Origin: a virus
Length of the DNA: 64,000 nucleotides
Strand: one strand, 5' to 3'
Virus record (IMG/VR): IMGVR_UViG_3300032893_000039
Location: 1-64,000 of that record
In this document: positions 10,406-10,685 of the stretch, piece by piece
How the letters are laid out: each line of letters starts with the position of its first letter
How positions within the stretch are numbered: the first letter of the stretch is position 1
The notes under the pieces: model-generated
Database searches by the model: none
What the model was told of the DNA's origin: nothing
What the model saw: the letters and a program-made list of their open reading frames with translations, nothing else
Program-made: the position numbers and the translations under genes

Positions 10406-10538
10406 GGCGGATGACGTAGTAAAGGGTTACTTCTGGGAACTGTGGGTCGGTGGTTCGAGTCCATCACATTACTTCGGTAGTGTTAGCTCAGTTGGGAGAG
10501 CGACAGATATTGTTCCCTTTGCGATTTATTTCTCCGCC
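10406..10538 (+). ncRNA. Y-RNA-like element 4 with circularly permuted tRNA domain (YrlA-like)
   Basis: Ro-type stem: GGCGGA/TCCGCC (10406-10411, 10533-10538), TGACGTA, helix GTAAAGGG/CCCTTTGC (10419-10426, 10515-10522) and U-rich GATTTATTTC. Inserted distally is a permuted tRNA: T stem GGTGG/CCATC with loop TTCGAGT (10449-10465), acceptor 3' strand ACATTAC, a TTCG tetraloop (10473-10476), acceptor 5' strand GTAGTGT, then the D arm GCTC-AGTTGGGA-GAGC (10486-10501). The order is that described for bacterial YrlA RNAs, where the Ro-binding stem replaces the anticodon arm. No CCA end is possible because the acceptor is closed. Confidence 0.85.
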
Positions 10539-10544
10539 AGTGAT

Positions 10545-10685
10545 TTAGTGAGGGATGACGCAGTAGAAAGTTACTTCTTCGAGCAATCGAAACGCAGGTT
10601 CGAATCCTGCCGAAAGTATTACTACTTTCGTGGCTGAGCGGTTTAAAGCGCACGTTACTTTTTACGAATGTTTCTCCCTCACTAA
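10545..10685 (+). ncRNA. Y-RNA-like element 5 with circularly permuted tRNA domain (YrlA-like)
   Basis: The outer helix is a perfect 11 bp: TTAGTGAGGGA/TCCCTCACTAA (10545-10555, 10675-10685). Then come TGACGCA, helix GTAGAAAG/CTTTTTAC (10563-10570, 10658-10665) and loop strand GAATGTTTC. The tRNA-like body has T stem GCAGG/CCTGC with loop TTCGAAT (10594-10610), acceptor CGAAAGT/ACTTTCG closed by ATTACT (10611-10630), and a D-like arm TGGCTGAGCGGTTTAAAGCG. The RNA ends 47 nt before the Ro60 ATG, so it may be processed from the same transcript. Confidence 0.85.

Follow-up and report, generated by a model that had tools for sequence, protein, structure and literature searches.

Two candidate YrlA-type Y RNAs with unlike, circularly permuted tRNA bodies upstream of a phage Ro60-type gene

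Five small RNA elements, each with an outer stem and a common motif, were found in the 610 bases upstream of a Ro60 (Rsr) gene in a phage. Elements 4 and 5 of this array are probably YrlA-type Y RNAs, which the phage Ro protein would hold by the stem and in which the tRNA body would engage host proteins recognizing the elbow of tRNA. In sequence, both combine the common outer stem and motif with a permuted tRNA body in the upper part, next to the Ro gene; the body of element 4 imitates a class I tRNA and that of element 5 a class II (serine-like) tRNA. Circular permutation has been described for YrlA (PMC11472068).

The window, that is, the whole 64-kb stretch of DNA analysed (64,000 nucleotides), covers most of an IMG/VR phage record 65.8 kb long, with genes for terminase, a portal-type connector, capsid, DNA polymerase A, and helicase. 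The Ro60/Rsr-type protein is encoded at 10733..12058 on the plus strand. It contains a TROVE domain (Pfam TROVE, E 1.2e-18) and a VWA-like region with DVSGSM, and profile matches were obtained to solved TROVE, Ro60, and Rsr structures (PDB 9l5y, 9kop, and, for Rsr, 2nvo). No RtcB was found in the phage record, which hence lacks the repair-operon setting known from Salmonella.

The motif of the array is GATGAYGYAG...GTTACTTC, with TTTCATC instead of GTTACTTC in element 2. As a matter of conservation only, the outer-stem motif is common to elements 1–5 and to those preceding most related TROVE genes. Elements 1–3 bear small hairpins, and the two tRNA-like bodies sit in elements 4 and 5; all five elements are on the plus strand. 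By direct reading, element 1 (10123..10185) is a simple Y RNA-like hairpin with a 4-bp lower stem, the motif common to elements 2–4 (here GATGACGTAG...GTTACTTC), and an upper stem TTCAGTT/AACTGAA. A motif and stem scan gave element 2 (10222..10304), with the Ro-type stem GTCCGA/TCGGAC and GTAAACAA/TTGTTTAC and the motif ATGACGTAG...TTTCATC, as well as element 3 (10320..10395), in which a Ro-type stem is accompanied by a small hairpin, without tRNA parts. Folding weakly suggested an anticodon-arm mimic in element 2, CTTC-CTGCTAA-GAAG (10249..10263, plus strand), with a loop as in tRNA-Ser GCU. The fold with this hairpin (CUUC-CUGCUAA-GAAG) came at almost no energy cost (−25.1 kcal/mol compared with −25.7 kcal/mol for the MFE), and the loop CTGCTAA was identical in the relatives L020, L077, L086, L129, and L182; four pairs within a 44-base insert may nevertheless be due to chance.

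Two other structured stretches were observed upstream of the array. The one at 9640–9925 is long, non-coding, and strongly structured (MFE −108 kcal/mol over 291 nt), and includes a 16-bp hairpin, CCCGGCTGGTAG...CTACCAGCCGGG, near 9873–9921; no Rfam family matched it. Just before element 1, at 9943–10072, AACCTACT...AGTAGGTT closes a large structure that contains several internal hairpins; it might be an additional array RNA lacking the Ro motif.

Element 4 (approximately 10406..10538, plus strand) was recognized by a permuted-tRNA scan, the Rfam YrlA model, a covariance model (R1, see below), and folding. Its Ro stem, GGCGGA/TCCGCC, encloses the class I permuted body (10440..10506), which was found by the scan and by ARAGORN after rotation. 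The order within the body is CTGT (like positions 40–43), a V loop of five bases (GGGTC), the T arm, the 3′ acceptor strand, a UUCG loop, the 5′ acceptor strand, U8-A9, the D arm, G26, and ACAG (like positions 27–30). The T arm (10449–10465) has the stem GGTGG/CCATC and the loop TTCGAGT. The acceptor strands ACATTAC (10466–10472) and GTAGTGT (10477–10483) flank the loop TTCG and are paired at 7/7 positions, with one G-U, in a hairpin closed by c(UUCG)g. The D arm (10486–10501), GCTC-AGTTGGGA-GAGC, has a 4-bp stem and is preceded by T8-A9. The ACAG on the 3′ side of the D arm can pair with the CTGT on the 5′ side of the V loop, which would resemble the upper end of an anticodon stem, but the energy model prefers the competing pairing UCUG/CAGA. 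The folding probabilities were about 0.99 for the acceptor, 0.97 for the D arm, and only 0.08 for the canonical T stem. When the body was rotated and given a dummy anticodon loop, ARAGORN called it a tRNA; the same call was made for 0/300 sequences when both halves were shuffled and for 2/300 when the 5′ half alone was shuffled.

Element 5 (approximately 10549..10681, plus strand), obtained from the scans, folding, and R1, has the Ro stem TGAGGGA/TCCCTCA and AGAAAGT/ACTTTTT, enclosing a class II permuted body. Between the Ro stem and the T stem sits the hairpin TTCGA-GCAA-TCGAA (10578..10591, plus strand; UUCGA-GCAA-UCGAA in the RNA). In class II tRNAs, a long variable arm occupies this place, just before the T stem. 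The permuted-tRNA scan and R1 located a T arm, an acceptor hairpin, and a 3-bp D arm at 10594..10649 on the same strand. The T arm (10594–10610) has the stem GCAGG/CCTGC and the loop TTCGAAT; in the acceptor (CGAAAGT/ACTTTCG), 10611–10617 pairs with 10624–10630 across the loop ATTACT, all 7/7 pairs being Watson–Crick; and the D arm (10633–10649), GCT-GAGCGGTTTAA-AGC, is serine-like, with an 11-base loop and T8-G9 preceding it. The variable-arm-like hairpin, T arm, and acceptor are all part of the MFE fold, and the folding probability was about 0.99 for the acceptor and only 0.30 for the D stem. When this folding test was applied to a genuine tRNA-Met of the same phage, the T stem reached only 0.2; the low values for the T stem of element 4 and the D stem of element 5 are hence not evidence against these arms. 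Among the 326 ARAGORN tRNAs of the fetched loci, the 5′ half of element 5 was nearest to tRNA-Ser, with modest scores, and other isotype assignments were weak. ARAGORN also called a tRNA in rotated element 5, a result that counts for little because one strand of the anticodon stem was missing and had been supplied. U8, A14, G15, G18-G19, A21, T54-T55-C56, A58, and C61 are present in the bodies of both elements.

Both strands of the window were scanned for a T arm followed by a 7-base acceptor strand, a loop, a second strand re-pairing with the first, two bases, and a D arm. Exactly two places were found, elements 4 and 5, with scores of 34 and 33, compared with a top score of 28 and 0.39 hits per copy for 150 first-order Markov copies of the window. 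R1, which was built from 50 bodies of relatives with the window left out, gave 59.3 bits for element 4 (E 8e-12) and 41.6 bits for element 5 (E 8e-8); its third match in the window, a false one of 37 bits, was to the tandem tRNA-Leu/tRNA-Met genes at 63040–63208 on the minus strand. Rfam YrlA (RF02553) was the top RNA-family match for element 4 (10423–10535; 32.0 bits, E 1.1e-4 in a 1.5-kb search) and gave 18 bits at 10593–10649 in element 5. Both values lie below the gathering score of 69, which is the curation cut-off of one Rfam model and not a structural feature. At gathering scores, Rfam returned ordinary tRNAs only and none at elements 4 or 5, and ARAGORN called no tRNA at either element in the unrotated array region. 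An anticodon arm of 5 bp and 7 nt before the V region is absent from both elements. As encoded, they have no free acceptor end capable of carrying CCA, the strands being joined by TTCG and ATTACT, respectively; post-transcriptional cleavage is possible. Pairwise comparison of the bodies gave no support for an origin from the Pro, Met, or Leu tRNA genes of the phage itself.

A preliminary description had placed two YrlA-like tRNA mimics at 10440–10630, each running from a T arm through the two acceptor strands (3′ first, with a short loop between them) to a D arm, with full 7-bp acceptors. All of the named pieces were recovered by direct reading and the scan, the acceptors are indeed of 7 bp, and the Ro stem, the permuted body, and the adjoining Ro60 gene agree with YrlA architecture. 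The region was correct, with both full Ro-stem elements cut short. The two bodies had also been said to resemble different tRNAs, and a difference between class I and class II makes the gap larger than stated.

Similar RNAs were sought beside TROVE genes of IMG/VR, GenBank phages, and GTDB genomes. Permuted bodies were present upstream of the TROVE gene in 56/104 viral and 48/80 bacterial loci, some of these being near-duplicates. In a test free of selection for pairing, T arms located ≤800 nt upstream (n = 301) were followed by 7 bases fully re-paired within 18 nt in 101/301 cases, compared with 7/301 when the 3′ sequence was shuffled and 5/120 for downstream controls. In an alignment of 50 sequences, which had been pre-chosen for pairing, the acceptor pairs were 91.7% paired and changes on both sides were seen at all 7 pairs. 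A DNA pattern search with the exact motif of the window gave three contigs: L029 with a similar array, L028 with motif-like elements, and L027, probably a chance match. The first of these, a 4.3-kb phage contig, has three elements with the GATGACGTAG-type motif at 3040–3290. A different layout was seen in L064, where a Ro-type element (3215–3345) contains a D arm, an anticodon arm (TAC), and a T arm in normal order and the Ro stem replaces the acceptor stem; by eye, L005 and L009 resemble it.

YrlA RNAs are described as tRNA copies without an anticodon. In 43 bodies from the relatives, a perfect anticodon arm was found before the V loop, with 5 bp, exactly 7 loop bases, U33, and a purine at 37. 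The arm occurred in 42/134 distinct bodies, compared with a mean of 1.3 and a maximum of 8 when the 40 bases were shuffled, and the loop length in the relatives peaked sharply at 7. The UUC that ends the Ro motif also begins the anticodon stem. The earlier statement that the Ro stem replaces the anticodon arm therefore holds for elements 4 and 5 and fails as a rule for the family. Once rotated, with only a 3′ ACCA and flanks added, all of the arm-bearing bodies (43/43) were called tRNA, with varied anticodons that included Asn, Thr, Ser, Gln, His, and Arg; in a control with the 5′ half swapped in from another body, 22/43 were called. Even unrotated, 18/43 were called tRNA, which accounts for annotated tRNAs in front of TROVE genes, for example a tRNA-Thr in Xanthomonas phage 10KY502B and a tRNA-Ser in Brevundimonas phage Gurke. 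Some tRNA annotations of Xanthomonas and Brevundimonas phages are thereby explained as parts of Y RNAs: two annotations (L017, 3792–3859; L020, 3793–3867) and one ARAGORN call (L023, 3785–3855) overlap Ro-stem elements and correspond to permuted Y RNA parts.

In the reading that we prefer, the ring of the phage Ro protein would bind the outer stem of elements 4 and 5, and the body would fold as a tRNA elbow, in which the T and D loops come together with the tertiary bases. The body could then recruit or occupy host proteins that read the elbow, such as PNPase, in a RYPER-like manner, or tRNA-modifying enzymes; PNPase would need to be supplied by the host. Rsr, Y RNA, and PNPase form RYPER, and both DusA and TruB use YrlA as a substrate, modification having been reported for other YrlA RNAs (PMC8394870). 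By analogy, modification of the T and D loops of elements 4 and 5 is plausible. Elements 1–3 may be Ro partners with other effector ends, and two unlike bodies would allow one Ro protein to reach two different sets of tRNA-binding proteins.

Elements 4 and 5 share with Salmonella YrlA (RF02553; PDB 6CU1) the adjoining Ro60 gene, the outer Ro stem, and the permuted T arm, acceptor hairpin, and D arm (PMC8394870). They differ from it in their scores below the Rfam gathering threshold, in belonging to a set of five elements with two dissimilar tRNA bodies, in the class II element 5 with its variable-arm-like hairpin, and in the phage origin of the Ro protein. The Rsr/Y RNA/PNPase system (RYPER) of Deinococcus radiodurans likewise has a Ro60 homologue beside its Y RNA; however, the phage protein is only distantly related to Rsr in sequence (2nvo, E 3e-5), and involvement of PNPase is no more than a possibility for the phage. 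According to PMC7765460, which cites Sim and Wolin 2018, tRNA-mimicking (YrlA-like) Y RNA modules in phages have already been reported, so that the basic idea of a phage YrlA is known. Three features, namely a class II body, an array of several elements, and the complete anticodon arms of the relatives, are absent from the Rfam YrlA model. Provisionally, no description of these three features was found in the literature covered, a set to which the primary YrlA papers (Chen 2014, Wang 2018, Sim and Wolin 2018) do not belong.

What tRNA mimicry is for in bacterial Ro60 systems could be tested directly, with modification enzymes, PNPase, or tRNA nucleases as candidate targets, now that complete permuted tRNAs bearing genuine anticodon loops, as well as class II bodies, have been found next to the Ro60 genes of phages and bacteria. 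Speculatively, the Ro60-bound Y RNAs of phages and bacteria might form a changeable set of tRNA replicas into which the Ro stem is plugged at one of three sites (the anticodon loop; the 26/27 junction, with the anticodon arm kept; or the acceptor end). Ro would offer them, as baits or decoys, to enzymes that read tRNA, tRNA-cleaving defences among them, and their repertoire would differ from phage to phage; we put this forward very tentatively.

An unlikely alternative, though the best of those considered, is that the permuted tRNA Y RNAs serve counter-defence by occupying or misleading tRNA-cleaving host nucleases, as substrates when they have an anticodon arm and as competitive inhibitors when they do not. 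The perfect anticodon arms of the relatives, with their many anticodons, are consistent with this, as is the over-representation of U36 in these anticodons (48/85 compared with 94/258 tRNA genes, p 0.0015, uncorrected for kinship). Phage tRNAs counter the retron and PrrC defences (PMC11555353), and their use against tRNA-cleaving defences has been offered as a hypothesis (PMC10264068). Such tRNAs resemble elements 4 and 5 as phage-encoded, tRNA-shaped RNAs with a possible common purpose; they are ordinary and chargeable, whereas elements 4 and 5 have a closed acceptor end and no anticodon. A nuclease would find no anticodon loop to cleave in elements 4 and 5, which makes them unlikely as a simple anticodon-nuclease target. 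That role was rejected for them, and the decoy for tRNA-cleaving defences suggested in the preliminary description does not fit them in its simple form. In Salmonella, YrlA was left uncut by the anticodon nuclease when tRNAs were cut, which argues against the substrate role, and competitive inhibition by YrlA was proposed instead (PMC7790460). Arm-bearing RNAs were also present in bacterial genome assemblies (19/63), which speaks against a phage counter-defence, although some of these copies may be prophages. The decoy idea can be tested with those relatives that keep the anticodon arm.

It is quite improbable that the array is a cis-regulatory leader, in which Ro would bind the 5′ region of its own gene for autoregulation and no RNAs would be released. 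About 50 nt separate the end of element 5 from the start codon of Ro, a short spacing seen again in relatives, and no clear promoter or terminator was found between the array elements; both observations would suit a leader. In crAss001 (L026), however, the sole strong Ro-stem element that was found is downstream of the gene, and known Y RNAs are separate, stable RNAs.

That the bodies are remains of tRNA genes, with the T arm of one tRNA and the D arm of the next mimicking a permuted body, is hardly credible: the tandem Leu–Met genes do give the false R1 match, but neither ARAGORN nor Rfam calls a tRNA at elements 4 and 5, there are no flanking tRNA halves, both bodies lie inside a Ro stem with 7/7 acceptor bases pairing across loops of 4–6 nt, and about a hundred loci share the layout. 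The junction of the tandem genes does imitate a permuted body, which suggests tandem copies of tRNA genes as a possible source of permuted bodies.
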